Virus record (IMG/VR): IMGVR_UViG_3300035189_000012
Coordinates: 1 to 29,002 of that record
Reading direction: 5' to 3' (one strand)
Length of the DNA: 29,002 nt
Source of the DNA: a virus
Part shown: positions 3,060 through 20,128 of the stretch, one piece after another
Position numbering within the stretch: position 1 is the first letter of the stretch
Layout of the letters: each line of letters starts with the position of its first letter
Notes under the pieces: model-generated
Told to the model about the DNA's origin: nothing
Seen by the model: only the letters and a program-made list of their open reading frames with translations
Databases searched by the model: none
Program-made: the position numbers and the translations under genes

Positions 3060-6000
3060 TCACCTCGCATTGATCACTCTCCAGATGTTGCCGCCGGGCT
3101 GGAGCCCTTTCCGGATTGCCGACTCGGCCTCAACCTTGGCGGCGTCCTGAACGGCCTTGCCGAATGCCGCAGCATCCTCGTCGGTGCCGGCACCACCATT
3201 CCCAGAAGCGTCGACTTGCACCGTTATGGGGAAGCTGAGCGTGCTGCCGCCGGAACCACCACCGCCGACAGCCATAACACCAAGCTTTCCGCCCGCAGTG
3301 CGCGTCAGGGGCATGATCGCCTCCGGCCCTGCCTCGCCCATCACCCCCGGCTTTCCGCCGGCCATGCCGAACGCCGTGGGCTGGCTGACGATGGAGTTGG
3401 TGAAGGCACCACCATTGGCGAACATCTGCGCGCCGCCCGACCATGCACCACCCTTGGCTTGCGGAAAGTACGAACCGGAGTAGCCACCAGCTGACGCGCC
3501 AAGGTTTGACGATGCAGCACCGGCAGAACCGGCCGCCAATCCGTTGCCACCGGAGGCGCTACCACCGAAGTAGCTTGTCGCTACACCAACCAGACTGCTG
3601 AGCAGAGACGAACTGGCCTGGCGTGCAGCAATCCGGGCCATATCCGCCAGAATCGATTTCGTGAAATCAGCAAACGACAGCTTCCCGGTTATGGCGAAGT
3701 TGGCGACAGCGTCCTCCATGGAACTGAAGGCGTTGGTGAACAGGCTCTTGGTCTGACCGGCGACATCCCTGGCGCCGTCCAGGTAGTTGGCGCAGGCCGA
3801 CGAGGCACCCTTGGTCCAGTCACCCTGTGCAGCCTCAACATCTGCGTAGTTCTGCCGGATCTGGTCGGTCGCGGCCTTGTTCGCGTCTGCGAGGGCTTGC
3901 GACTTGCGGCGAAACTCTTCGGGGTCCATTTTTCGCGACGGGGCGGATTGCTGATTTGCAAGCTCCAGCGACTGCTGCGCAAACCGGTCCTGCTGTGCAT
4001 TCAGCTCGGCGGACAGGGCTTTCTCACGATCACCCTGGCCAACCCCAACAACGGCGCGCTGGCCGGCCAGGGCCAGGGCTTTCTGTTGCTCGCCAAGCGC
4101 CTCGACGTACCTCTTGACCGCGAACTCTTGCTTCTCAAGGCGCCCCTTTTCGTTCGTGGCCAGAACGGCCAGCTCGCTGTCGGAGTCCTTCTGTGCCTTC
4201 ACCATTGCGGTGCGAGCATCAGCGATTTTCTGATCAAGCTGGATGCGCTGGGCTGCTGATGTGCTGGTCTTGCCCTTCGTAGCCTCAAGCGCAGCGATTT
4301 CCGCCTCATAGCCGGCGGTCACCTCGTCGCGCTCATTGCCGATCATTGCTTGACGCTTCAGCAGGTAATCGGCCTGAGAAACGAGCCCGGCTTTCTGTGC
4401 AGCATCCAGTTGTTTCTGGGCGTTCTTGTACTCGTCGACAATCCCGGCCAGGTTGTTTTTTGCGTCGTTGAAAGCTGTCAGATCGACCGCGGTGGATGCG
4501 GCCTTCGGATCCTTGAATCGGTCGTTGATGCTCGCAATGTTCCTGTCGATGACGGACTGATTCAGTCGTTCGTCATTCGGACTGGCCTTGCGTATGTCAT
4601 CAAGCTGGCGTTTGTACTCTTTGATCGCATCAGCACGCTTTTGCTCATTGGTCATCGAAGACTTGGTGAGCGTATCGACCTTCTCCTGGGCCTCCATCGC
4701 GGCTTTCTGTGCAACGGCCTGATCACCAAGATATTTGCTCTGCCGCTTCTCGATCTCGATGTACGACTCGAGCAAGTCGAGTTGCTTTTGATCCTCCTCG
4801 CGAGATCTTCCGACCTTCAAAAGGTCTGGATTGTCCTCACCAAATATGGGGAGGGTCGAGTAAGCGCCTGGGCTTGACAGCTTTTCACGCAAAGCCTGTG
4901 CCTGTTGAGTCAGAGTCTCCTGCCGACCAACATTCAGGGTTGCATCAAGGGCGCCTTTGGCGGCATCGCGCACCAGGTTCCATCCCTTCTCAATGATTCC
5001 GAGACTCTGGGATATTTGCCCTGCACGAACCTTTACGGTGTCGGCGTATGTGTCGGTAAGCAGCTTTGCGGCACCAACGGTATCGCCCTGCTCCTTCAGC
5101 GCGACAATCTGCGAGTACACCGAGGCGGTCAGGAAGTGGTACTGATCATTCAACGACTTCGCAGCGGCCACTGGATCGTCGGCAATCTTGACGAACTCAG
5201 CCACGGTTTCGTCGACGGATTTGCCGGTGGCTTTCTGCATCGCAAGCGCAGCTTCGGATATCTCGACGAAACTGCCGCTGGCAAGCTTTCCGTTTCCAGC
5301 CAAGGTGGCGAGTACCTCGGCGGCCGCCCCTGTGGTTCCGACCGTTGCGCTGATCTGGCGTGCCATGTCAGCAAGCTGGCCGGAACTGGTACCGGCGTAG
5401 TTACCGGTCAGGATCAACGACTTGTTGAACTCCTGTCCCTCCTGGCTCCCCTTGGAGTAGGCATAGGCCAGGCCCGCGACGGCACCAGCCACCGCAGCAA
5501 TCGGGCCGACGATAGCAAGGAGGCTTGCAGCGCTGACGCCTGCGCCTGCTCCAAGCCGTGCAACTGCGCGAGCGCCACTCGCAAAATCACCAGAGGTCAG
5601 TGCATTGCCGAGCTGAGACAAGCTCTCCTTAGCTCGACGGCTCCCGAGATTCAGAGCCTCGATGCCTGTGGCGGTCTTTTCTATACCGGCCCGATCCTTG
5701 CCGATCATTGCCAGTCTTTCTGCATAAGCGGCCGCGTCAATCCCACCAGCCTTGTGCAGGTCGTTTAGCGCCTTCTCCTTGGCCTCCAGCTTGGCGAGTT
5801 GAGCCACGAGCGGATCGATGCTGTTGACGGTGCGCTTGAGTGCCTCGATTCGACGGTTTTCAGCCTCGATCTGCCTCTGCTTTTGCGCTGCCTCCTTGGT
5901 TTCGGCCTTCTCAATCTTGTCGTAAGCCTTGCCGAGCTGATCCTGATAGCGGGCCTGCTCCTCAATCGTGACCAAACCACCCTTCCGGGCGCGCTCCAGC

Positions 6001-7047: not shown

Positions 7048-7704
7048 TTACACCACCGCCGCGTAGCGAGTTGGGCGGCCGGTCAGCGCAACGCTGATAA
7101 CGCGGGTCATCAGGTTGTTGCGCGACATGGTCGGGGTCGCAGTGATCGACACATAACCGTTGTAGATGATTCTGTCGCCGCCGGGCAGGTTCAGGACCAA
7201 GACACGAGGCTGCTTGTCGTCGTCCGCTTCCTCGCAGACGGCTACATACGGCTTCGACGCATCGTCAGCCACAGTGATGGTGACGGTGATCGGGTTCTTG
7301 GTGGTGGGCATCTGGCGGTCGTCATCGTCAGCCAGGAAGCCGTAAGTCAGGAACTGCTGGTCGCCACCACTCGAAGCGAGCTCGGTGATTTGCGAGATCT
7401 CGGTGAACGTGGTCACCTCGCGAACGGAGCCAATGCCAGAGCCTGCCGGGTACTGCTGGGTGTTGGTGGTGTTGATACCACCCAGGGCGAAGGTGCCGCT
7501 GGCGATCTCGCCGACCATCAGGGCGCGCTCGTTGAGTCGGGTCCAGCCGGAGCTGACCACAATGATATCGCCCTCGGCCAGGCCATGGGCGGCCGCGGTG
7601 GCGACGGCAGGTTTTGCATTGGTGAGCGCAGTGAACGGAATCGCAGTGCCGTAGGCAGAAGCGATTTCGAAGGTAGCGCCGTTGGGCATTTTGATGCCGG
7701 CCAT
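7048..7704 (-). CDS. Major tail tube protein
   Basis: 218 aa. It starts MAGIKMPNGATFEIASAYGTA and is rich in beta-strand and small residues, with an acidic loop (LADDDDRQMP) and a C-terminal half of alternating strands. This is the pattern of lambda gpV-like tube proteins of Pseudomonas siphophages. The position, directly upstream of G/G-T and after the tail terminator, supports this. A terminator-like hairpin lies just upstream (7731-7753), so it may be transcribed at a different level from the genes before it. Confidence 0.88.
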   Translation of the reverse strand: MAGIKMPNGATFEIASAYGTAIPFTALTNAKPAVATAAAHGLAEGDIIVVSSGWTRLNERALMVGEIASGTFALGGINTTNTQQYPAGSGIGSVREVTTFTEISQITELASSGGDQQFLTYGFLADDDDRQMPTTKNPITVTITVADDASKPYVAVCEEADDDKQPRVLVLNLPGGDRIIYNGYVSITATPTMSRNNLMTRVISVALTGRPTRYAAVV

Positions 7705-7730
7705 GGGGGTTTTCCTCGTTGCAGAAATGA

Positions 7731-7753
7731 CAAAACCCGCTCAATGGCGGGTT
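7731..7753 (-). terminator. Intrinsic terminator-like hairpin before the tail tube gene
   Basis: On the minus strand AACCCGC and GCGGGTT form a 7-bp stem around a 6-base loop, followed by a short T-run. It lies between the tail terminator gene and the tail tube gene inside the late operon, so it must be leaky or overridden by antitermination. Confidence 0.6.
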
Positions 7754-7778
7754 CAGTGGTTTTGCCCAATGGGCGGAA

Positions 7779-8195
7779 TCAGTCGGTGTCGGCGCGGTAC
7801 TGGAAGGACAATGGCACCGTATAGGTGGTGTCGCCCGGAATGCCCGGGCCCTGATCGGGCGGCGTCAGGATCACGACAGTCAGGCCGTTTTTCGTGTTGC
7901 GCTCGTACAGTGGGAACAGTGTTGTGATCTCGTCGGCCAGGGTGCCGGCCGGCCCGCGGAACTTACCAGATGGCGTCACGATACTGACCTGGAAGACTCC
8001 GGTGTACAGCCGATGGTCGCCGCCCAGGGTGTTGCTCGCGGTGTCGGCCGGCAACGTGAAGGCCCGAAGGTAGGTTTCGCCGTCCTTCGGTGCATAGGCT
8101 TCGTTCTCGACTACCACCTTCAGCGGTACAGCCCTCGCTTTCGCCCAGGCGATCACCCGGGCCTCGTAGATCGAGGCAATGACGTTGTGGCTCAT
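7779..8195 (-). CDS. Tail terminator protein, gpU/DUF4128-like
   Basis: 138 aa. The N-terminus (EARVIAWAKARAVPLKVVVENEAYAP) and the core GVFQVSIVTPSG...EITTLFP, with TYTVPLSFQYR at the end, match phage tail completion/terminator proteins of the DUF4128 type. Such proteins form a ring that stops tube growth and joins tail to head. The start overlaps the stop of the gp10-like gene as ATGA (8192-8195). Confidence 0.8.
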   Translation of the reverse strand: MSHNVIASIYEARVIAWAKARAVPLKVVVENEAYAPKDGETYLRAFTLPADTASNTLGGDHRLYTGVFQVSIVTPSGKFRGPAGTLADEITTLFPLYERNTKNGLTVVILTPPDQGPGIPGDTTYTVPLSFQYRADTD

Positions 8196-8827
8196 ACCTG
8201 GTTGTTCCTGATGGCTTCGTCGACGATCTGCTGGAACCGGGCCAGCGTTATGCGGACCATTCCGCCAGGGGCCTGCTTGGAGTGCCCGTATTCGAGCGGG
8301 ATGCCGTAGGGCAGATTGTTCACGATATAGGCCGTCTGGCCGGCAGTCAGTGACTGCACTTGGGTACGCAAAACCGCGATGGTTACATTGCCGGAAGGGT
8401 CTATCTGATCCAGCACACCATCTGCCGGTGCATCGACGCTGAACTGCCAGTTCCCCCGGAACCGCCCGCCGACATAGTTCTTGCCGGCCACCAGCCCGTT
8501 CACGTTGAAGTTCTGGTCGCGCTCAGCCTTCGTCAGTGGTTTGGCGTACTTCACGCCGCGCTTCAGCTTCCCTGCTTTGGTGAAGTTGCTTTCGTCCAGA
8601 TTGATCAGCGTATTGCGGATGGCCACCTTGAAGTCGTAGCCATCGGCGGCCCTGGTGTTGGCCTGGCGGTGCACGACGTTGGCTGCCCAGATCTCAGGGT
8701 TACCCACGGGCGACATGCGAGTCACGCTGCTGCCGATCTCGATAACGATCTCTCGGAAGGTCGCATCAATGCCCTGAGCAGCTTGCTCGGCGAACTGCCG
8801 GATGTTCTCGGCAAAGCTGCCATTCAT
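8192..8827 (-). CDS. Neck/tail-completion protein, HK97 gp10-like
   Basis: I start this gene at ATG 8827 (MNGSFAENIRQFAEQA), giving 211 aa. The open frame extends 46 codons further, but that part is proline/arginine-rich and overlaps the upstream gene in another frame, so it is rejected. The product has an N-terminal helix and a body with TRMSPVGNPEIWAAN and RGNWQFSVD. It ends with the PYGIPLEYGHSKQAPGGMVR motif, characteristic of the HK97 gp10-like neck family. It likely acts at the head-tail junction. Confidence 0.8.
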   Translation of the reverse strand: MNGSFAENIRQFAEQAAQGIDATFREIVIEIGSSVTRMSPVGNPEIWAANVVHRQANTRAADGYDFKVAIRNTLINLDESNFTKAGKLKRGVKYAKPLTKAERDQNFNVNGLVAGKNYVGGRFRGNWQFSVDAPADGVLDQIDPSGNVTIAVLRTQVQSLTAGQTAYIVNNLPYGIPLEYGHSKQAPGGMVRITLARFQQIVDEAIRNNQV

Positions 8828-8841
8828 GCCCGCGTAACGGC

Positions 8842-9210
8842 TCACGACCGCACCTGAAGCTCGTACAGGAGCGGAGTGCCGGCCGGGTTGATCTCTTTCA
8901 GCGGTGGCACGATGGACCAGGCACGCCCCTGGATAATCACCTTGTTCAGCAGGCCTGGCGCCCACTCAAGCCCCTGCGCGGCGATCTTGAGCTTTTTGTC
9001 GCCCTGCTTGATGAGGCTGTTGTTCTGGAATTCCTGACCAGTGAAGTCGAGTAGGATGCCTTGGGCGGTTTGCTCGACGGTGGCACCTGGCGCTTCGCCG
9101 CCCGTCTCCGGGTCGTACTCTCCCGACTCCGTCTTGCTGATGGTCACAGGCTGGCCGAACTCTGTGATCATCTCCAGAGCCATCTCGGCCATTTCGTCGT
9201 AGAAGGCCAT
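8842..9210 (-). CDS. Head closure/head-tail joining protein
   Basis: 122 aa from ATG 9210 (MAFYDEMAEMALEMITEFGQPV), with GGAG upstream. An upstream extension to 9264 would read through a terminator hairpin and is unlikely. The body (DPETGGEAPGATVEQTAQGILLDFTGQEF) and the C-terminal strand-rich LLYELQVRS end resemble small beta-barrel stopper or head-closure proteins. Position between the adaptor and the gp10-like gene fits. The specific family is not certain. Confidence 0.7.
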   Translation of the reverse strand: MAFYDEMAEMALEMITEFGQPVTISKTESGEYDPETGGEAPGATVEQTAQGILLDFTGQEFQNNSLIKQGDKKLKIAAQGLEWAPGLLNKVIIQGRAWSIVPPLKEINPAGTPLLYELQVRS

Positions 9211-9226
9211 GGGGGCTCCAGATGTG

Positions 9227-9252
9227 AAAAGCCCAGCACTATGGCTGGGCTT
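9227..9252 (-). terminator. Intrinsic terminator after the 60-aa gene
   Basis: On the minus strand AAGCCCAGC and GCTGGGCTT form a perfect 9-bp stem with a 6-base loop, followed by TTTT. It lies just downstream of the 9274-9456 gene and ahead of the head-closure gene, inside the late operon. Confidence 0.75.
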
Positions 9253-9273
9253 AAAATGCTGCATTAGTTCAAA

Positions 9274-9456
9274 TCAAGAACCTAAAATTAAATGCTTTTG
9301 TGCTTTAAAAACAAAAAGAGCCCTGTCTGCAACTGTCTTAGCATGATCTACCGTTGCTTGGGCAGACTTCAGATGCGGGCTCACCCCAGACAGTGCCGAA
9401 ACCAGAGCCGCAGTCCAAACTTCTAATTCAAGCTCTTTTTCACCCTTGACGCTCAT
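9274..9456 (-). CDS. Small AT-rich protein of unknown function (moron candidate)
   Basis: 60 aa if begun at ATG 9456, which has GAGGTG five bases upstream. The upstream ATG at 9468 lacks a spaced ribosome site. The product (MSVKGEKELELEVWTAALVSALSG...) is mostly helical, with no recognised domain. Its DNA is clearly more AT-rich than the head genes on both sides, and it is followed by its own strong terminator. These are the marks of a moron inserted among the head genes. Its function is unknown. Confidence 0.6.
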   Translation of the reverse strand: MSVKGEKELELEVWTAALVSALSGVSPHLKSAQATVDHAKTVADRALFVFKAQKHLILGS

Positions 9457-9495
9457 AAAACACCTCATCTTCCTGATTGAGGGTCGAAGTTATCA

Positions 9496-9999
9496 CTAGG
9501 CTCTTACAGCAAACAACCCCCGCTTTAGTAGGTAATCGGCAAACTGCGTGGCGCTCGGCCGGTCCGGAGCCGCCGGCAGCAGCCGGTTGCTGGTGCTGGG
9601 AATAGCCGCATACTGCCGCGTCACCGCCCCCTCAACACGATCCAGCAACACAGCACCTTTGCGCTTCTCCACCGGGTCGATATCGTCCTGATGGATCTCA
9701 GCGGCCAGGGCCATCTGACCATACTGGATGCGTGCAGGCAGGTAGTTGTTCGGCTTGATCTCCTGATCAAGCAATACCTCTCGGCGCGGCCAGGACAGGG
9801 CCTGATCACTGTTGGTCTTACGCCCTTTCCAGGTCATGCCATCCATCGCCAGGGCGGCCCGGCGCAGCAAAGACTCTTGCGCGGGGACGTCAGCAGGAAT
9901 GACCGTGCCGAATTTCACGGCATACAGGGCCAGGTCCTCGGCGCTCGCGTAGCTTTCGGCGTCAGGCTTGCCGGTGCCGTCCTCGATGATGAGTGTCAT
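9496..9999 (-). CDS. Head-tail adaptor region protein, DnaT-like annotation family
   Basis: 167 aa. It begins MTLIIEDGTGKPDAESYASAEDL and has a helical body with the AALAMDGMTWKGRKT and SWPRREV motifs. Close relatives in Pseudomonas phages are often labelled 'DnaT-like ssDNA-binding' (family memory). However, its place after the capsid and before head closure makes a gp6-like head-tail connector role more likely. I infer the adaptor function from position and small helical build. Confidence 0.65.
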   Translation of the reverse strand: MTLIIEDGTGKPDAESYASAEDLALYAVKFGTVIPADVPAQESLLRRAALAMDGMTWKGRKTNSDQALSWPRREVLLDQEIKPNNYLPARIQYGQMALAAEIHQDDIDPVEKRKGAVLLDRVEGAVTRQYAAIPSTSNRLLPAAPDRPSATQFADYLLKRGLFAVRA

Positions 10000-10058
10000 G
10001 CGTCAACTCGCTGGAAGTGTTTCAAGTTCGACTGCCGAATCACCGGCAGCCAGCAGTA

Positions 10059-10646
10059 TTACGCCTTGGGCAGCTCAGCGACGAGCTTTTCCAGGGATTC
10101 TTTCGAGGCGTTGGCGCGGTAGCTCACCTTGGCCTCGTCGAGCTTCGCTTTCAGTGCCTCGATTTCAGTGGCATCGCCAGCCGACTGATTGGCAGCTGCC
10201 TTCAGCGCTTCGACTTCGTCACGCAGTGAGTCTACGGTAGTGCGCAGACCGTCACGCTCAGCGGTCAACTCGACAACTGACGCATGGATGGTGCCGAGCA
10301 CTTCAAACAGGCGTAACGCCAGATCGCCAGACCCAGGGCGGTGAATCTCGCCAGCGCCCATGCCATCAATCAGGAGATTGATCTCTTCGTTTTCAGCCAG
10401 CAGCTTGGCGAGCTTTTCAGTGAGTTCACCAGGCACCGGCGCTTGCAAGGTGAAGGCAGCAGGACCTGGAGCCTCGACTACCGAAACCTCAACATTAGCC
10501 GCCTCATAAGCGGCGACGATCTCAGGGTAATCGCCAACAATAACCACCGCTGTTACGTCACGCTCAACGCTGCGGAACAGGCTCGGAACCCGGTAACGCT
10601 TGTCCGGGTCGAAGTTCTCAAGCTGGTTCGTGTAAATCAGTTCCAT
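10059..10646 (-). CDS. Phage protein with C-terminal HeH/LEM-like domain
   Basis: 195 aa from ATG 10646 (MELIYTNQLENFDPDKRYRVPSLF), with GGAG upstream. The longer frame to 10703 crosses a hairpin and the capsid gene end. The N-terminal third is compact. Residues about 125-165 form a coiled coil (ELTAERDGLRTTVDSLRDEVEALK). The last 30 residues (AKVSYRANASKESLEKLVAEL) look like the HeH/LEM or SAP-like helical pair seen in phage head-region proteins. It follows the capsid gene. Its role is unknown; decoration or DNA-end contact are possibilities only. Confidence 0.7.
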   Translation of the reverse strand: MELIYTNQLENFDPDKRYRVPSLFRSVERDVTAVVIVGDYPEIVAAYEAANVEVSVVEAPGPAAFTLQAPVPGELTEKLAKLLAENEEINLLIDGMGAGEIHRPGSGDLALRLFEVLGTIHASVVELTAERDGLRTTVDSLRDEVEALKAAANQSAGDATEIEALKAKLDEAKVSYRANASKESLEKLVAELPKA

Positions 10647-12478: not shown

Positions 12479-13564
12479 TCAGATTCCGGCGCGTTGGAAC
12501 GCCAAAGGCTCCAAACCCTTCATTTGCGCCAGGGTCAGCGGCTCGAAGTTTCGATCAAGCTGCAGTTCAGCGAACCGCTGCACGCTCAATCCGCCCTCAC
12601 GGAACAGCTTTGCCCGGACAGGGCCGATTGCCACGTCCTGGAACGCTGCTGGCTGAAGTTGGAGCCACTGGTAGTAGTCAAGACTTGCGCTGACCTGCTG
12701 CGGTCCGTCATCACCAACAGAAGCCCGCGTAGCGCCCTTGGTGAACGTCTCGCTGAGTTTGGTCAGCAGAATGAACGTGGTGCGGCAGTTCGGGTGAAAT
12801 GGCGGCCGCGGTCCAGAATCGACCGGGAACCTTCGCTTGTCCATCGAGCGGCAGGTCTGGCTGGTCTTGCTGTCCAAGGTGGCGACCATTTCGATCTCGG
12901 TCACCACATCGGTGTTTTCTTTCGCGACCTCCATGCGTGCCTGGGACGACACATGCTGAATCGCCGTATGCACGATGGTGCTGGCATTCCGGTTGGTAAC
13001 GGCCAGGATGCCGTCCTTGTAGCCCGCCGCCTTGGTCCCGCGAATGTTGCGGATGATCTGAAAGTTCGTCTGCCCTTCGAAGAAGCCCTGCCGGATCGTG
13101 CCAGTGACCCGATCACGCTCGGCCTGGGCCCAGCCATCAATGAACGACTTCAGCAGCTTGCCGCCACCAATGCCTCGCACGCTGAGCGGGTTCGTGAGTA
13201 CCGCCGCCCTGATCGCTGTCGCTGTGGGCACCGCTAGATCAAGCGAGACACCCGCGGGCGCCGACCGGGCAAGGCTGGTTGCTTCGAACTCGGCCTCGTA
13301 GTTGGCGATGTCGATCAGGTCCAGGTTCAGCTTTTCGCTGTAACGGTCGAAAATGCCCAGCAGCAGGCTGTCAACCTCGCCGAGCAGCGCCTCAAGTCGC
13401 TTGACGTTGTACTCAGTCAGGTCCGACTGGGTGAGCCGGTCCCGAATCGACCGGTCAATCTCCTTGAGGAAGGGGGCGAACTTGCCCGCCTCCCCCGCCT
13501 TCAGCTTTTCGAGAAAGACCGCGTGCCGGATTGTGGCATCAAGGATTGCCTGGTTTGCTGCCAT
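12479..13564 (-). CDS. Minor head protein, SPP1 gp7/Mu F-like morphogenesis family
   Basis: 361 aa. The N-terminal half is helical. The C-terminal half contains the family core RTKAAG-type turn (IRGTKAAGYKDGILAVTNRNASTIVHT) and the motif with TSQTCRSMDKRRFPV then RPPFHPNCRTT. Its Cys/His residues are typical of Mu F-like head morphogenesis proteins. These proteins are minor capsid components near the portal. The start overlaps the portal 3' end by 26 bases, so translation is coupled. Confidence 0.85.
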   Translation of the reverse strand: MAANQAILDATIRHAVFLEKLKAGEAGKFAPFLKEIDRSIRDRLTQSDLTEYNVKRLEALLGEVDSLLLGIFDRYSEKLNLDLIDIANYEAEFEATSLARSAPAGVSLDLAVPTATAIRAAVLTNPLSVRGIGGGKLLKSFIDGWAQAERDRVTGTIRQGFFEGQTNFQIIRNIRGTKAAGYKDGILAVTNRNASTIVHTAIQHVSSQARMEVAKENTDVVTEIEMVATLDSKTSQTCRSMDKRRFPVDSGPRPPFHPNCRTTFILLTKLSETFTKGATRASVGDDGPQQVSASLDYYQWLQLQPAAFQDVAIGPVRAKLFREGGLSVQRFAELQLDRNFEPLTLAQMKGLEPLAFQRAGI

Positions 13565-14297
13565 TCAGTGTCTCCAGATTATCCAGGCCCAGGCCGTCGG
13601 CCTGCTCGCTCAGTTCGCCGTCGATCTGCGCGTCAGTGCGCTCCGGAGCAATCAACCCCAGCTTGCGCAGGTAGGCGCGCAGGTCAGCCTTCGCGAACCC
13701 ACCGTTCTGCCAGAGCCCGACAAGCGCGGTGATCATCTGCGGATCAGCCGTCAGCTCTAAGAACTCCTGGTTGATCTGGTAGGCAGCCTTGTCGGTGCTG
13801 CCCATGTACTGACCGCACCACATGATCGCCCGGGTGTATGCCTCGCTGACGTTTGCCACGCACCCGGCAAGGACCGATGTCGATGCCGACTGATCGCCGC
13901 GAGACTCGGTAGCGGTCTTGGTGGCAAGTGACGCCACCACCATCCGAGCGCCCAGCTCGATCATCATCTGGTTCTTGTCGTTAAGCGCTTCCTTGACCAG
14001 CGTATTGGGCAATGGCTGTGCATAGCCGAACTGACCACCGGCCGGCAGCATCATCGGCGCCCTGGAGCCGACATAGACGCCGTTCTTCTCCATCCAGTCG
14101 CGCCACTGCTCGTCCAGGCCAGAGATCCACGGCTGAGCCTGGCCACACCAGAAGACGCTGTCCTCATAGTCAGCGCTGTTCCGGTAATGGCCCAGGTTGA
14201 TCATGGCAATGTCGTAGAGCGGCGACTCATCGATGCTTGGGTCGTTGTTCTGCGCACCGACGAAGGTGAAGGGGATCTCCTTGAGACGCCCCATCAC
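13539..14297 (-). CDS. Portal protein, C-terminal fragment
   Basis: 252 aa if begun at ATG 14297, 16 bases past the amber codon. A GGAAGG stretch lies four bases before this ATG, so reinitiation is possible in principle. It holds the back half of the portal: IPFTFVGAQNNDPSIDESPLYDIAMINLGHYRNSADY, the tunnel-region helices, and a C-terminal acidic helix. It is in the same frame as the N-terminal fragment. A two-part portal has not, to my knowledge, been shown in this family. Confidence 0.72.
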   Translation of the reverse strand: MMGRLKEIPFTFVGAQNNDPSIDESPLYDIAMINLGHYRNSADYEDSVFWCGQAQPWISGLDEQWRDWMEKNGVYVGSRAPMMLPAGGQFGYAQPLPNTLVKEALNDKNQMMIELGARMVVASLATKTATESRGDQSASTSVLAGCVANVSEAYTRAIMWCGQYMGSTDKAAYQINQEFLELTADPQMITALVGLWQNGGFAKADLRAYLRKLGLIAPERTDAQIDGELSEQADGLGLDNLETLNGSKPGNP

Positions 14298-14312
14298 ACC
14301 TTCCGGCCGGAA

Positions 14313-14954
14313 CTATTCGGTGACCACCAGCGGCCCGCCATTCTCCGGCCCGGCCCGGCGCCAGACTCTGCAAACAAAGCCATCGTCCTCCAGCGCCAGT
14401 TCCCGGTACTGCTCAACCGTCTTGAAACCGAAGCCGTCGGGAATCTCTGGCGACTCGCGCAACACCACCAACGTCAGCACGCTGTGGCCGTTCACCATGC
14501 CCGTGCGCCAGTTGATGATGTCTTCGGCGCAGTAGGACAGGATCACCGAGTGCCCGCCGACGCCGTCGTCCTGGTGATAGTCGACGTACAAACCGTGCCG
14601 GCCAGCCTCGAGCACCTTCTCCAGCGTGCCTTGGGAATGCTGGTAGATGCTCACCCCAGAACCGTTGGCGTTGTCTTGCAGGTACTCCATCTTCTTCGGG
14701 ACAGCTAGCGTCGGGTCTTTGTGAAAGGCCAAGCCGAGCAACCCGTTACGGGTATGCCCCGTCGCGTTCTTGAATACCGCGCGCTCACGATAGGCCCTGT
14801 TCCGGTCTACGTTCTCTGGCGACTTGTCGTGTGAGTTGATGTACGGCAGCCGCGAAACAACCCGGTGCTGTCCAGCACAAACGTCACGAACGGTCGCCCA
14901 TCGGTCCAGCGTTTCGATGTAATCCGCCCGCTTGAAGGAAACGTCGTTGCTCAT
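14313..14954 (-). CDS. Portal protein, N-terminal fragment
   Basis: 213 aa. It starts MSNDVSFKRADYIETLDRW with an ATGA overlap to the terminase stop. It carries the front half of the DUF4055 portal fold: RGLLGLAF-type segment (ARNGLLGLAFHKDP as seen in TRNGLLGLAFHKD), GRHGLYVDY and YCAEDIINWR. It ends at the amber codon after GGPLVVTE. Alone it lacks the helical tunnel and C-terminal part, so it should not build a functional ring. Confidence 0.75.
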   Translation of the reverse strand: MSNDVSFKRADYIETLDRWATVRDVCAGQHRVVSRLPYINSHDKSPENVDRNRAYRERAVFKNATGHTRNGLLGLAFHKDPTLAVPKKMEYLQDNANGSGVSIYQHSQGTLEKVLEAGRHGLYVDYHQDDGVGGHSVILSYCAEDIINWRTGMVNGHSVLTLVVLRESPEIPDGFGFKTVEQYRELALEDDGFVCRVWRRAGPENGGPLVVTE

Positions 14955-16252
14955 CGGGCGAATCCCATTTTGATAGCGGTGACCGGTTTGATGATCGGGT
15001 ACTCGCGGTGGATGAAGTAGCCGCCGGCGTCGTTCGCGTGATCGATGCCAGCGGTTTTATCTGGCTCCCCGTTCGCGCCCCACACCTGCTGCTCCAGGCC
15101 ATCGGCGTAGGTTGGGCAGGTGAAAGGGTTGATCAGGTAGCGGCGCTCGCCCTGCGCGTTGCAGAAGACGGCATTCATTGCGTTGATTCGGTCCTTCACC
15201 GGCGGGTTTGCCGCTGGAGCAATGACCGAGAACCCGGCCTGTTTGAGCATGGCCAGGTCGGTGATGCTGGCGTTCACGGACTTGCGCGAATCGCCCGAGG
15301 CATCCGGGTAGATCCTTATTTCGCGCGTCTTCTTGAAGTCGTTGCCGTCGTGCTGCCAGTAGCGTTCCTTGATGCGGCGGATCATGTCCGGCGTGTCGTA
15401 GCCATCGATCAGCTCATCCACCGCCCTGGGCAGCCCCTGGTCGCGCTTGACGTGGGTGATAGCCGCCATCTTGCCGACGTTGAAGTCCATGCCGATGAAC
15501 AGAGGCTCGCCGGGCTGCACGGTGTCAAAGCACCCGTTCAGCTTTCGGTCGTAGGCCGTGTAGATCGTGCCGGACGTCAGGTTGACGAACTGGCCTTTCA
15601 GGTACGCCAGGATCAGCTGTGGCGGGTACGACTCCATCAGCGATGCGATGTAGTCGTCCGGCAGGTTCAGCTCGTTGTCGAACGTGCTGGCCTGCACCAG
15701 GCCGTACATCTCGTTGAGCGATGGCTTGTCACGGAGCTGCTTCACAAACTGCTGGAAGACGAACTTGAAGCCTTCTGGCGTCGTGGTGACGTCCACCCCG
15801 TTCTTCAGCCCGGGCAAGTTGTACCGCATCCGGGCAATGATCTTGCGCCAGGCCTGCTGCGCCTTGATTGCGGTCAGCACGTCCAGCTCATCCACCAGGG
15901 CATGACCGATCTTGAAACCCACAATGGTCTGCGGCTTCTCCATCGACCGGCAAATCACAGTGCCGCGGTACTGCCGGCCGCTGTAGATGTGAACCTCGTG
16001 GTTCGCCTGGTTGATCTTGGTCTTCAACCCCCAGTCATAAGCCACCTCATCCATGGTCGGATAGAAGATGTCCCGGATCTGCGGGTAAGTCGGGGCGAAG
16101 TAGCCGGCGTTGACGCCAGGCCACTCCATGAAGTGCTTGCTCAGCGCCGAGCAACCCACCCAGGTCTTGCCTGAGCCGAACCCGGCAACGAACGCACGGA
16201 ATTTGTGGGGTAGCGTGAGGAACTGAGCCTGCGGAACGTTAAGGCTCGGCAT
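14951..16252 (-). CDS. Terminase large subunit
   Basis: 433 aa from ATG 16252 (MPSLNVPQAQFLTLPHKF), preceded by GAGGAAG. A 33-codon extension overlaps TerS in another frame and is rejected. The ATPase has Walker A GFGSGKT (K29) and Walker B ALVDELD. The C-terminal RNase H-like nuclease shows Asp in GMDFNVGKMAA, DASGDSRK and GIDHANDAGGYF, the expected three acidic positions. It packages DNA into the prohead with TerS. It overlaps TerS by 14 bases and portal by ATGA. Confidence 0.95.
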   Translation of the reverse strand: MPSLNVPQAQFLTLPHKFRAFVAGFGSGKTWVGCSALSKHFMEWPGVNAGYFAPTYPQIRDIFYPTMDEVAYDWGLKTKINQANHEVHIYSGRQYRGTVICRSMEKPQTIVGFKIGHALVDELDVLTAIKAQQAWRKIIARMRYNLPGLKNGVDVTTTPEGFKFVFQQFVKQLRDKPSLNEMYGLVQASTFDNELNLPDDYIASLMESYPPQLILAYLKGQFVNLTSGTIYTAYDRKLNGCFDTVQPGEPLFIGMDFNVGKMAAITHVKRDQGLPRAVDELIDGYDTPDMIRRIKERYWQHDGNDFKKTREIRIYPDASGDSRKSVNASITDLAMLKQAGFSVIAPAANPPVKDRINAMNAVFCNAQGERRYLINPFTCPTYADGLEQQVWGANGEPDKTAGIDHANDAGGYFIHREYPIIKPVTAIKMGFAR

Positions 16253-16731: not shown

Positions 16732-17346
16732 TCAGGCCGATCTGAGCAGACAGGTTCCGCAGGCCCTCGCAATGTTCAATTTCCCCACCTCGGCAGGACT
16801 GTTTGCAGCATCCACCAGAGCCTGCACTTCTCGGCTGGCACCATAGCGACGGACCACACCGACGAACTCCTCGACGTCATGGCCTTGAAGCTTCAGCTTG
16901 GGGGCGCCGTCCTGAGTGAAGGCTGGCTGACCGTACTTATCGGTCGCCTGGGCGATGTGATAAAGCTCGTGCTCCAGGAGTGCGCAGAACTCTTCGTCGC
17001 TGCACTGGGCGCAGTAGTCAGCCGCCAAGGTGATGATGAAAGCCGGCACATCGCCAAACCAATCACGCATCTGCTGCTCCATCCGGGCCTTCTGCCAACC
17101 TCCGGCACGAAACGCTACTTGCTCGGCCTGACCAAGAACCACCCGCACCTGCTTCTCGAAGCTCGACGACGCCCACATGACCCGGATGTCTGCATCCACC
17201 AGGTGGGCATGGTCTTCGTTGTGAATGCTGCCGGTGTCGGCAAGGATCTCGGCTTGGAGCCACTCCCACACCTCAGGGGCTGGAGTCAGGCGGATACCGA
17301 AGTCAGCCAGATCAACCACTGACGAGGACGGATATGGCCTGTCCAT
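16732..17346 (-). CDS. Phage metallopeptidase-domain protein
   Basis: 204 aa. The zinc motif HELYH is at residues 126-130, preceded by LAADYCAQCSDEEFCALLE. This matches the putative phage metallopeptidase family found next to terminase genes in Pseudomonas phages. A good AAGGAG lies eight bases before ATG 17346. Its substrate is unknown. The C-terminal cysteines (ARACGTCLL) may be structural. It lies between crcB and TerS. Confidence 0.82.
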   Translation of the reverse strand: MDRPYPSSSVVDLADFGIRLTPAPEVWEWLQAEILADTGSIHNEDHAHLVDADIRVMWASSSFEKQVRVVLGQAEQVAFRAGGWQKARMEQQMRDWFGDVPAFIITLAADYCAQCSDEEFCALLEHELYHIAQATDKYGQPAFTQDGAPKLKLQGHDVEEFVGVVRRYGASREVQALVDAANSPAEVGKLNIARACGTCLLRSA

Positions 17347-17387: not shown

Positions 17388-17765
17388 TCAATCCAGTGCC
17401 GTCACCAGACCAAAGCCGATGAAGGTCATCAACAACGACCCCACGACATGTGTGAGCACCGTAGCAGCAGCCCAGCCGAATCTACCCTCTTGCAGCATGA
17501 ATACGATCTCAGCGGAGAACGTTGAAAAGGTAGTCAGCCCACCACAGAAGCCCGTGGTCACTAGCAATCGCCACGCAGGATCGAGATCCGGCATCTTGAT
17601 AAAGAACGCCATGGCGCACCCTATGATGAGCCCGCCAATCAGGTTAACGAGGAGCGTACCCAGCGGCATGCTGGGGAACGCACCATTGAACTTCAAGGCA
17701 AGCGCCCACCGAAGCACACAACCGAAGCTGCCACCAATGATTACCGCTAAGAGAGACTTGTACAT
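17388..17765 (-). CDS. crcB: Fluoride channel CrcB/Fluc
   Basis: 125 aa, the usual size. Four hydrophobic segments are seen (about 3-25, 34-56, 66-85, 97-121). Family signatures include [20 protein letters not shown] (conserved Asn) and the [16 protein letters not shown] motif with the Phe residues of the fluoride pore. Dimeric Fluc exports F- passively. The gene has its own sigma70 promoter and a fluoride riboswitch upstream, so it is a complete fluoride-response unit. Genes on both sides are phage genes on the same strand, so this is cargo. Confidence 0.93.
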
Positions 17766-17792
17766 TCGAGACTTCCAAAGAGATCTGAGGAT

Positions 17793-17846
17793 CCCTATGG
17801 AAAGACAGGCGAACGCCTACGCACCCTCCATAGGGTTTGCGTAGGC
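17793..17846 (-). promoter_or_regulatory. Expression platform of the crcB riboswitch with competing hairpins
   Basis: In the RNA, the aptamer 3' end GCCTACGC (17839-17846) pairs with GCGTAGGC (17815-17822). The loop holds ACCCT/AGGGT. The same CCCTATGG (17829-17836 area) can instead pair with CCATAGGG at 17793-17800, closer to the crcB start. A further small hairpin (AGGCG-CGCCT, 17807-17818) lies between. The two long pairings exclude each other and use the aptamer's own 3' arm, which is how such a switch would couple ligand binding to gene expression. Confidence 0.55.
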
Positions 17847-17894
17847 ATCATCAGCCAGAAGGCGGTTATGAGGAGGAATGCCATCTCCTACCCG
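17836..17894 (-). promoter_or_regulatory. Fluoride (crcB) riboswitch
   Basis: The minus strand shows the conserved aptamer pieces in order: GGAGATGGCATTCCTCC, then ATAACCGCC, a short TTCT loop, then GGCTGATGATGCCTAC. This is the crcB motif known from Pseudomonas. It sits about 70 bases upstream of the crcB start and just after a promoter, so transcription should begin near its 5' end. An open frame in this region (17817-18032) is a shadow of this RNA. Confidence 0.93.
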
Positions 17895-17895
17895 A

Positions 17896-17924
17896 ATCAT
17901 ATGACAACAGGCAAAAAGCCTCAA
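17896..17924 (-). promoter_or_regulatory. Sigma70 promoter of the crcB unit
   Basis: TTGAGG (17919-17924), a 17-base spacer, and TATGAT (17896-17901) on the minus strand. The start point would fall at the first bases of the riboswitch. This makes crcB independent of the late promoter. Confidence 0.65.
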
Positions 17925-17983
17925 CACAACTGAAGCAGAGACTGCTTGCCTAAAGCTGAATTTCCCACGCCCTTGATCAATAC

Positions 17984-18005
17984 GTGCCGCACTAACCTGC
18001 GGCAC
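17984..18005 (-). other. Perfect hairpin after the Ntn hydrolase gene
   Basis: GTGCCGCA and TGCGGCAC form an 8-bp perfect stem with a 6-base loop, four bases past the hydrolase stop. It lacks a clear T-run, so it is at best a weak terminator. It marks the junction between the hydrolase gene and the crcB unit. Confidence 0.45.
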
Positions 18006-18009
18006 ACCT

Positions 18010-18450
18010 CTACCCAGGCTTGGCCGGATCAATGATCACCGCGCAGACCTTGCCACCGGTGTAGATATCTCGCTTCATGGCGGCACGCACCGCCTCTTCA
18101 GCGCTTGCCCCCATATCCATTGCAGCCAAGGCATATGCAGCGCCACTGCCGATGGCGTCAGGGTTGGACAGCTCAAGCTCCTGCTTCCAGATGCCTGTCT
18201 TGTCGTCATGACCGACCATCATCAGCTTTCCACCATCGACGACAAAGCCCGAGCACTCCACGGGAGCCGGTGACGACGTTCCGAAGTAGGCAGAGATCAA
18301 GGCTTTCTCATCGCATACAGCGCCCGACAGGAAGAAGCTGACCCCATCGACAACCTGGCACTTAGGTGCGGTGTCAGAAACGATGCGATCGCTTCGGGTC
18401 TGGCGACCGTCATAGGCGATCACACCGTCTTTGTAGGCAATGGTCGTCAT
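18010..18450 (-). CDS. HslV/proteasome-like Ntn hydrolase
   Basis: 146 aa from ATG 18450, with GAGG six bases upstream. The long upstream extension of this frame is discarded because it overlaps the membrane gene. The start MTTIAYKDG mirrors HslV (MTTI...), so removal of Met would expose Thr as nucleophile. Asp14 in AYDGRQT and Lys30 in APKCQVV align with HslV Asp17 and Lys33. The later GSGAAYALAAMDMGASAEEAVRAA matches the HslV GSGG-Y-A-A helix region. At 146 aa it is shorter than HslV (about 175). No HslU partner is visible. Substrate and oligomeric state are unknown. Confidence 0.8.
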   Translation of the reverse strand: MTTIAYKDGVIAYDGRQTRSDRIVSDTAPKCQVVDGVSFFLSGAVCDEKALISAYFGTSSPAPVECSGFVVDGGKLMMVGHDDKTGIWKQELELSNPDAIGSGAAYALAAMDMGASAEEAVRAAMKRDIYTGGKVCAVIIDPAKPG

Positions 18451-18467
18451 CTGAACCCTCATGATTA

Positions 18468-18506: not shown

Positions 18507-18851
18507 TTACTTGCTCCGGCGATCGATACCGCCAGGCGCCTTGTCGCAGTGCAGGCAGTGCTCGCAGTTCAGCGTTCGGCAAAGCCACGCTTTCACCGGT
18601 TTCCAGTACGTGACCATGAAGATGTGCCGAGCACCGGCCAGAGCCAGGGACACATGCAGCGTCAGGCCGGCGGTGGTCGGACCGAAGAAGATTTCTTGGT
18701 TGCGGCTCATCACGACAAACCCGCTGATGGCGATCGTCGAGTAAATCAGCTTCCCAAGGATGCCGTCCCTCACCTTCCCGCTCAATACACACCAGGTAGC
18801 CCACAAGGCGATCAGGCCGCAGGCGATGGAGTTGATCAGTTCAAGATTCAT
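18507..18851 (-). CDS. Small phage membrane protein with C-terminal Cys cluster
   Basis: 114 aa with three hydrophobic segments (about 7-25, 33-50, 62-84), then a short cytosolic or exposed tail with NCEHCLHCDK. Its gene overlaps the holin-like gene by ATGA (18848-18851), so the two are co-translated and likely work together in lysis, as holin/antiholin or a spanin-type helper. The C-x-x-C-x-x-C cluster is unusual for a holin and might bind a metal. The family is not recognised with certainty. Confidence 0.7.
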   Translation of the reverse strand: MNLELINSIACGLIALWATWCVLSGKVRDGILGKLIYSTIAISGFVVMSRNQEIFFGPTTAGLTLHVSLALAGARHIFMVTYWKPVKAWLCRTLNCEHCLHCDKAPGGIDRRSK

Positions 18852-19186
18852 GGTGGATTGCCTCCCCCGAACCGCTGGCGGATGAGCGCCCAGAGGTCAG
18901 CGGATTTGATGGCTCGGTTGATGGCCGCCAGGAGCGAACCGCCGAATGCGCCCAACAGGAAGCCGATGCCGGCGACAATCTTCGGTTCGGTCACGCCCAG
19001 GTAGGTGCTGACCATGCTCGTCAGATAGATCGAGCAGGCCATCCCTGTGATAAGGAAGATCAACCAGGCACGCCAGTCTGTCAGGTCGTCCTTGTGCCAC
19101 CAACTGGCAACCACGGCGCCAACGAAGCCCGCGATCAGCAATTCAAACCTGTCGATCTTGTCGAGCAGGCGCTGCAAATACTCCAT
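18848..19186 (-). CDS. Holin-like membrane protein
   Basis: 112 aa. Three hydrophobic segments (about 14-30, 40-60, 71-90) with a short N-terminus and a basic C-terminus, the class I holin layout. GGAG lies nine bases before ATG 19186. It follows the Q-position gene and a convergent insertion. No endolysin is next to it; in related Pseudomonas phages the lysin often lies after the tail genes, outside this window. The holin call is from topology and position. Confidence 0.7.
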   Translation of the reverse strand: MEYLQRLLDKIDRFELLIAGFVGAVVASWWHKDDLTDWRAWLIFLITGMACSIYLTSMVSTYLGVTEPKIVAGIGFLLGAFGGSLLAAINRAIKSADLWALIRQRFGGGNPP

Positions 19187-19290: not shown

Positions 19291-20055
19291 GTGGCAAAAA
19301 AAAACATCAAACACTTCGCACTAGTATTTCTGGTCTTCTGCACAGTATGCGCAAACGCAGAAAAACTTAAAATTACTCCAGAAAGCGAAGTACTGTACTT
19401 CAAAGCGCTACCTTACCTTGACGGTGTCGACAAAGAAGACAACGAGTTCTTCAAAAAATATCCTCCTAGCTCTACTGAAGTGAAACCTTCAGAAGAGCAA
19501 AAAAAACAATACAGGGAGCGATTGCAGTCACTTCTCAGCGAAGGAATCCCCCTGATAAAGCAATCAGCTGAAGCAGGGAATCCAGCTGCGCAGTACCGAC
19601 TAGCGTGGATATGGTCGCGTTTTGTCCCTCGCGACCAAGTTGCTGATAAAGTCTGCTCTCTTCTAAGGTCCAGCCTGAGCCAGGGTTTTACTCCTTCAGG
19701 CTTCCAAATGATATTCTACTGCTTCGATGAAGTTAAAACTCCTAAATTCCGATCATTAATCGACGCACTGCCTGAAAATGAAAACTTTTATAGCAAGTAC
19801 TACCCACAACCCTTGATAATGCCAAGTTGTGATTGGCGCAACACTTCCCACGCAGATTCAATTGTACTGTTCAATGATAAAAGCTTTCGCGCCGAACTCT
19901 ATATGAGCTTTGCAACTCAAATGTCAACACAAAACCTAAAACAAGAACAGCTTCGCTATCTCAATAAAGCCGCCGAGTATGGATGCGCCCGTGCGATAGA
20001 AAGAATTAAGTTAAATCACACAATTGAGGCTCGGGCTGCCGGAGCTGCTCCGTAG
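19291..20055 (+). CDS. Secreted protein with Sel1-like repeats (moron)
   Basis: 254 aa from GTG 19291, with AAGGA at proper distance. An upstream ATG at 19228 would add 21 residues ahead of an obvious signal peptide and is rejected. Residues 1-23 (basic AKKNIK, hydrophobic core ALVFLVF, then ANA cut) form a signal peptide. The helical body has Sel1/TPR-like units, GNPAAQYRLAWIW near residue 100 and YLNKAAEYGCARAIERIK at the end. Sel1 proteins mediate contacts in envelope or regulatory processes. It is AT-rich, on the opposite strand to its neighbours, and splits the Q-position gene from the lysis genes. Confidence 0.8.
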   Translation: MAKKNIKHFALVFLVFCTVCANAEKLKITPESEVLYFKALPYLDGVDKEDNEFFKKYPPSSTEVKPSEEQKKQYRERLQSLLSEGIPLIKQSAEAGNPAAQYRLAWIWSRFVPRDQVADKVCSLLRSSLSQGFTPSGFQMIFYCFDEVKTPKFRSLIDALPENENFYSKYYPQPLIMPSCDWRNTSHADSIVLFNDKSFRAELYMSFATQMSTQNLKQEQLRYLNKAAEYGCARAIERIKLNHTIEARAAGAAP

Positions 20056-20128
20056 CACAGCACGTTCCGACTTATCAGTGCCCAGACCTCCCCGAAGTCT
20101 GATCTGGATGCAGTAAATCGAAGGCAGC

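Follow-up and report, generated by a model that had tools for sequence, protein, structure and literature searches.

Does a fluoride riboswitch lodged among the late genes of a virus belong to a working fluoride-resistance cassette, and would the late transcripts that pass it answer to fluoride? The question is raised by a 29,002-nt stretch of DNA, hereafter the window, which comes from a single virus record of IMG/VR that has no host genome behind it. On its minus strand (17388-17924), a promoter-like TTGAGG-17-TATGAT, an aptamer, a 69-nt platform and the gene crcB follow one another 5' to 3', and the same-strand surroundings comprise holins (18507-19186), an Ntn hydrolase, a metallopeptidase, a DUF2280 protein, terminase and portal. 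A sequence-only reading had described a complete fluoride-sensing moron (promoter, riboswitch and crcB) inside a late operon. Our analysis makes it quite probable that a lineage of temperate Pseudomonas phages has a cassette for fluoride resistance in a variable slot, flanked by the holin genes on one side and by the metallopeptidase/terminase genes on the other, with the promoter, aptamer, translational switch and channel arranged as set out below.

An intact channel gene behind a fluoride aptamer

The covariance model RF01734 matched positions 17835-17897 (minus strand) with 55.6 bits (E 4.9e-13) against a gathering score of 34, in agreement with the aptamer that the sequence-only reading had recognised, and the crcB ATG lies 69 nt past the end of this match on the same strand. 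The expression platform is exclusive with the aptamer, as had also been claimed: GCCUACGC (17839-17846, minus strand) is common to the aptamer, as its 3' strand, and to an anti-aptamer hairpin, as its 5' arm.

The promoter-like site (17924-17896, minus strand), with its -35-like hexamer TTGAGG at 17919-17924 and its -10-like hexamer TATGAT at 17896-17901, has 9 of 12 matches, a score that is not significant alone, given a mean of 0.6 such sites in the shuffled 1.2-kb region. It stands directly 5' of the aptamer, and the -10 with 15 nt of its surroundings is kept in diverged relatives (GTTGTCATATGATTC is the same in 6/6 aligned contigs); five of the six -35 bases are retained in L008 and L009. 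What endures of the promoter first proposed is thus a conserved site in the right place, its score being no better than chance.

A Shine-Dalgarno (SD)-like GGAAG (17772-17776, minus strand) precedes crcB (17388-17765, minus strand), which is intact and encodes 125 amino acids. Its product matches PF02537 over the whole profile (1-103 of 103; 101.2 bits, cut-off 32.9, E 4.7e-29), and residues 1-124 match solved Fluc chains, among them 5a43 (E 1.4e-46), presumably the Fluc-Ec2 structure, which bears out the assignment of an intact Fluc gene. N41, F80 and F83, together with a 12-residue motif, are invariant among 15 CrcB homologues, and we take these three to be the conserved Fluc pore residues (the Asn of TM2 and the Phe-box). 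The phage CrcB, which matched no PHROG v4 family at E 0.001, is predicted to be a fluoride-selective dual-topology dimer channel.

Three competing helices point to translational control

Three helices compete in the leader, all on the minus strand. The anti-aptamer hairpin (-22.1 kcal/mol) is closed by the 3' arm GCGUAGGC (17815-17822) and has an inner pairing of ACCCU (17832-17836) with AGGGU (17823-17827). The ON helix joins the SD-mimic strand CCCUAUGGA (17827-17835), its 5' arm, to the anti-SD strand UCCAUAGGG (17793-17801), its 3' arm. The latter overlaps the 5' arm CCAUAGGGAUC (17790-17800) of the OFF helix (-12.4 kcal/mol), whose 3' arm GAUCUCUUUGG (17775-17785) lies over the start of the SD and hides it.

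On stepwise folding of the free RNA, the anti-aptamer hairpin formed first and the OFF helix next. When the aptamer was blocked, the best fold at lengths of 102 to 120 nt, before the full SD emerges, was the ON hairpin, and OFF overtook it only after the whole SD was out (-28.3 at 126 nt). At equilibrium in the full-length leader, the SD-hiding helix was still slightly favoured with the aptamer strand blocked, and hence ON requires either a particular order of folding or a stabilisation that the model does not include. In these models, therefore, the OFF state without fluoride is strong and the ON state with fluoride depends on folding order.

An intrinsic terminator was scanned for in the window's platform and none was found, nor does a U-tract follow either platform hairpin; control is therefore most likely translational. 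Weak matches in the terminator scan fell within crcB, in a variable loop or over the -35, the last in a form lost in L008 and L009, and were discarded; the one at 17826-17811 takes in the variable loop, at which L006, L008 and L009 all differ. PMC13273304 employs the fluoride riboswitch of P. syringae as a translational control.

Of 30 distinct leaders, drawn from phages and bacterial chromosomes (32 loci entered, one skipped and one duplicate), all had both platform helices, with mean energies of -17.2 and -14.0 for their own strands versus -9.7 and -7.5 for shuffled ones, and their anti-SD strands vary (UCCAUAGGG, CCAUGGGG, CCCACAGGG, CUUUCCAG and CCUGUCC). A strand-swap control gave a weaker contrast (means of -13.6 and -11.1), and in it 7 of 29 foreign strands, near-copies of its own included, paired equally well with the window's for each helix; many leaders being close relatives, this control is weak and covariation read from it is confounded by relatedness. 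The MAFFT leader alignment misplaced the anti-SD strand in several rows.

We envisage the switch as follows. A sigma-70 promoter would start the RNA just 5' of the aptamer. Without fluoride, the aptamer 3' strand would go into the anti-aptamer hairpin (17815-17846), and the freed anti-SD strand (17790-17801) would pair with the SD region (17775-17785), leaving crcB untranslated. Fluoride would lock the aptamer pseudoknot, its strands becoming protected and UUUGGAAG opened, so that the SD-mimic (17827-17835) could capture the nascent anti-SD strand before the SD appears and CrcB would be translated. The dimeric Fluc channel would then let fluoride leak out of the cell. In a lysogen, tolerance would come via the cassette promoter; in an infected cell, the same product would come from late transcripts, still gated by fluoride. 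Both the fluoride response and fluoride resistance are what we infer from aptamer, leader and channel gene.

The cassette recurs in related phages and is under selection

The same cassette occupies the same place in four further IMG/VR contigs (L006, L007, L008 and L009), and L091, a contig that ends within the leader, has the leader only. In the window, the upstream neighbour is a gene for an Ntn (HslV-type) hydrolase (18010-18452, minus strand) and the downstream one a phage metallopeptidase gene (16732-17346, minus strand), as originally described. L006 and L007 have the neighbours found in the window on either flank, among them the Ntn gene. In L008 and L009 the holin side and the metallopeptidase side are retained, but a different sequence stands where the window has the Ntn gene, and similarity to the window extends to 17927, just ahead of the -35; the hydrolase thus accompanies only some cassettes. 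Three relatives, Medea1 (whose annotation includes a cI repressor), phiAH14a and MT838239, have a crcB-free slot at the same place.

L008 sits in a 72-kb contig (G001, carried by IMG genome 2684623237). The left 5-6 kb of this contig match Pseudomonas chromosomes (95% over 5.35 kb, and 92%) and an integrase gene comes next, which marks the phage there as a prophage. In the Pseudomonas genome G269 (L301, about 8478-10498), a stretch 75% identical to the G001 integrase region lies beside the same chromosomal flank and hence probably belongs to a related prophage in the same position.

Between the window and L008 or L009, crcB gave dS of 0.21 and 0.24 and dN/dS of 0.035 and 0.046, respectively, values indicating that the gene is under strong purifying selection. 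From aptamer to ATG, 2 of 124 leader sites differ (-49 and -48) between the window and L008/L009, whereas the synonymous rate of crcB predicts 22.4 and 25.1 differences (P 5e-8 and 4e-9); four more changes lie immediately 5' of the aptamer. By this comparison, the aptamer-to-ATG leader is constrained beyond crcB itself. The L009 portal is only 45% identical to the window's, indicating that the cassette was kept through mosaic exchange.

The window's own portal gene (13539-14954, minus strand) has an in-frame TAG at 14313-14315 that is absent from the matched stretch in L003, L004, L005, L006, L007, L008 and L009; the window's phage may thus be defective, or the TAG may be a base error. Other features were seen in passing. 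L008 has an insert of ~1 kb relative to the window, near its locus positions 7600-8613 and near the terminase start (window 16171-16176). A Proteo-phage-1 RNA (RF03044, 48 bits) lies 5' of the holin genes at 20034-20113 (minus strand), and a strong hairpin with no T run, GTGCCGCA/TGCGGCAC (17946-18019), stands between the Ntn gene end and the cassette promoter.

Chromosomal relatives in Pseudomonas

A riboswitch match over the cut-off was found in 43 of 298 Pseudomonas genomes, and the nearest whole cassettes (leader plus crcB, 69-71% nucleotide identity) are chromosomal (G119, G111, G143, G179, G156, G370 and G408); none closer than about 71% turned up in two overlapping sets of 298 and 398 Pseudomonas genomes. 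These chromosomal cassettes share the three-strand platform of the phage cassette but differ from it in their platform letters, and no phage genes were apparent by eye among the neighbouring ORFs inspected. The terminase genes of other Pseudomonas phages had been suggested as a place to look for crcB; the cassette does recur near them, and stands at about 70% nucleotide identity to its chromosomal counterparts.

The phage CrcB is at most 74% identical to any chromosomal CrcB found, the closest by protein being L010 and L011 (73-74%), ahead of whose crcB no riboswitch matched at the gathering score. A CrcB tree, built on 103 rows from 107 extracted sequences, unites the four phage proteins in a single clade (100/97) inside an otherwise Pseudomonas CrcB group (98/85), with poorly supported sister-group nodes (90/56 and 92/28).

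In P. fluorescens-type chromosomes, the riboswitch SD precedes an ORF of ~30 codons, starting with TTG, ATG or GTG and ending in a TGA that overlaps the ATG of crcB (CCATGCTGA; L058, L084 and L087 about 3900-4005, also L144, L113 and others), an arrangement that suggests a leader peptide with translational coupling.

A second phage lineage and the wider survey

Riboswitch and CrcB scans of IMG/VR disclosed a second carrier lineage, represented by the 34-kb G461 (L286 with flanks) and the 7.9-kb L287, with full aptamers of 61.5 and 55.1 bits, respectively. The CrcBs of L286 and L287 share 70% identity, and their identity to that of the window is 31-36%. The gene for the terminase small subunit and a ParB-like gene enclose the cassette of L286, and genes for the terminase large subunit and the portal enclose that of L287, each cassette being on the strand opposite to those neighbours. 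L286 has a strong terminator-like hairpin and T run ahead of crcB and L287 an 11/12 promoter match ahead of the aptamer; the switch in this lineage may hence be transcriptional. In the L286 leader (7867-7976), GGCGGGATTTTTTATACCCGCCATTGGCGGGTTTTTTT makes up two terminator-like units with common strands, possibly a tandem transcriptional switch.

Altogether, an Rfam-grade fluoride riboswitch occurs in at least nine viral contigs (the window, L006, L007, L008, L009, L091, G461, L287 and L253), a lower bound since pattern scans recover only loci that fit the pattern; seven continue into crcB, L091 is cut off, and L253 leads into a ppaC-like gene. A loose riboswitch pattern had returned 83 stretches from IMG/VR (78 new loci and 5 known), which by eye and a simple test were mostly chance matches, Rfam being run on L239, L253, L212, L091 and the cassette loci only; of 14 stretches from a tighter pattern, 8 were real and 6 failed Rfam. 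On the viral contig L253 (571-1624, minus strand), the riboswitch is followed by the ppaC-like gene, for a DHH pyrophosphatase, and by one for a Usp protein; the contig also has umuDC-like and invertase genes (named by eye), and the locus resembles the crcB-gpmA-eno-uspA-ppaC mobile element described in PMC5971314.

CrcB matches were found in 1195 of 72,556 plasmid records and in 4 of 50,697 INPHARED records (H1-H4). Of the two inspected, H1 and H3, both were rejected as phage crcB, with bacterial chromosome genes around the gene; H2 bears the organism name of H1, and H4 is unannotated. MG543995.1 and CAKLQH020000005.1 are phage records with bacterial genes round crcB (leucine-tRNA ligase, ferrochelatase and others).

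Late transcription and alternative explanations

No terminator was found in the window scan within the 41-nt gap between crcB and the metallopeptidase gene or on to the terminase on the same strand, nor by eye in the corresponding gap of L006, L008 and L009; transcripts begun at the cassette promoter can therefore continue into the late genes. For this reason 'complete' says too much of a moron that, in contrast to the textbook kind, has no terminator of its own, while the rest of that description, an accessory cassette in late-gene orientation, agrees with the absence of crcB from three relatives. Late transcripts would indeed cross the riboswitch, as the sequence-only reading had it, but its suggestion that fluoride conditions them is weakened: with a translational-looking switch and no U-tract terminator, fluoride need not gate late transcription. 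Judging from the leader, fluoride should alter crcB output in both transcripts and not the passage of polymerase, an indirect Rho-polarity effect on untranslated crcB RNA being possible.

Gating of late-operon transcription by fluoride, the leader being either a terminator or a point of Rho polarity that crcB translation relieves, would suit a cassette co-oriented with the late operon around it and transcripts that can reach the terminase genes; untranslated RNA can moreover invite Rho, and untranslated crcB RNA could do so here. Against it are the platform hairpins, which no U-tract follows, the position of the weak 17826-17811 match over a variable loop, and the usual antitermination of late transcripts in lambda-like phages, and we regard such gating as unlikely. 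A bolder proposal, that at least two phage captures were kept at packaging genes and that in the Pseudomonas lineage fluoride-dependent crcB translation sets lysogen read-through into late genes via Rho polarity, seems to us quite unlikely; if true, the lytic programme would take an inorganic toxin as one of its inputs. It is somewhat unlikely, too, that regulation is as described but CrcB serves the phage and not the lysogen, guarding the energy metabolism of the infected cell (enolase and pyrophosphatase) late in growth where fluoride is abundant: the slot belongs to the late operon and the cassette is co-directional with the lysis and packaging genes around it, but it keeps its own conserved promoter-like site before the aptamer, which late expression alone would not need.

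Two further explanations deny the cassette a role in the phage. A crcB locus of the usual host kind, placed next to phage genes through misassembly or as prophage flank, might be suspected from the homologous riboswitch-crcB cassettes of Pseudomonas chromosomes and from INPHARED phage records whose crcB lies in bacterial stretches; with the same junctions in four other contigs, relatives with an empty slot, and a phage CrcB that forms its own clade at no more than 74% identity to chromosomal ones (nearest cassette about 71%), this is barely conceivable, in line with the initial view that the locus belongs to the phage. The portal nonsense codon, which may place this copy in a decaying prophage, could also speak for a recent non-functional passenger whose gene and leader are decaying, but the low dN/dS (0.03-0.05) and the constraint on the leader hold across three phage backbones that have diverged, that of L009 having received another portal, and make this highly improbable. 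A phage-borne cassette conferring fluoride tolerance on the lysogen is the reading we prefer, and tolerance to fluoride is thus a candidate lysogenic-conversion trait. With an intact phage-borne riboswitch, an obvious regulated product and a cheaply dosed ligand, the locus offers a clean case for studying the behaviour of a riboswitch that is read both from a lysogen promoter and by late transcripts. The presence of the riboswitch-crcB pair beside terminase genes in two unrelated lineages suggests that, in some habitats, fluoride stress is of consequence for phages and their hosts.

Comparison with known systems

We found no report of a phage-borne crcB or fluoride riboswitch in the literature searched, most subscription papers lying outside it. 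The phage leader shares with the translational Pseudomonas fluoride riboswitch the aptamer sequence, the pseudoknot strands, the anti-aptamer hairpin, the opposition of an SD-hiding to an SD-mimic helix and the lack of a U-tract; it differs in lying in a phage genome, within a late operon, and in its platform (UCCAUAGGG/CCCUAUGGA), which is unlike the chromosomal versions found. Its channel has in common with the Fluc/CrcB family (PF02537) the full-length match and a signature that includes N41, F80 and F83, and is set apart by being phage-borne and by forming its own clade beside the chromosomal Pseudomonas CrcB. Fluoride exporters on mobile elements have precedents in the R4' element of pPV989-94 and in crcB on Listeria plasmids (PMC5971314 and PMC9680904, respectively); as described there, these reside on plasmids or integrase-bound islands, in contrast to the phage late operon here. 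The manA and wcaG motif RNAs carried by cyanophages (PMC2864571) are likewise structured leaders before auxiliary genes, but differ in ligand, hosts and regulated gene. The riboswitch, the channel and the three-strand mechanism were known already; the difference lies in their setting, in temperate-phage genomes, captured at least twice and placed beside terminase genes.
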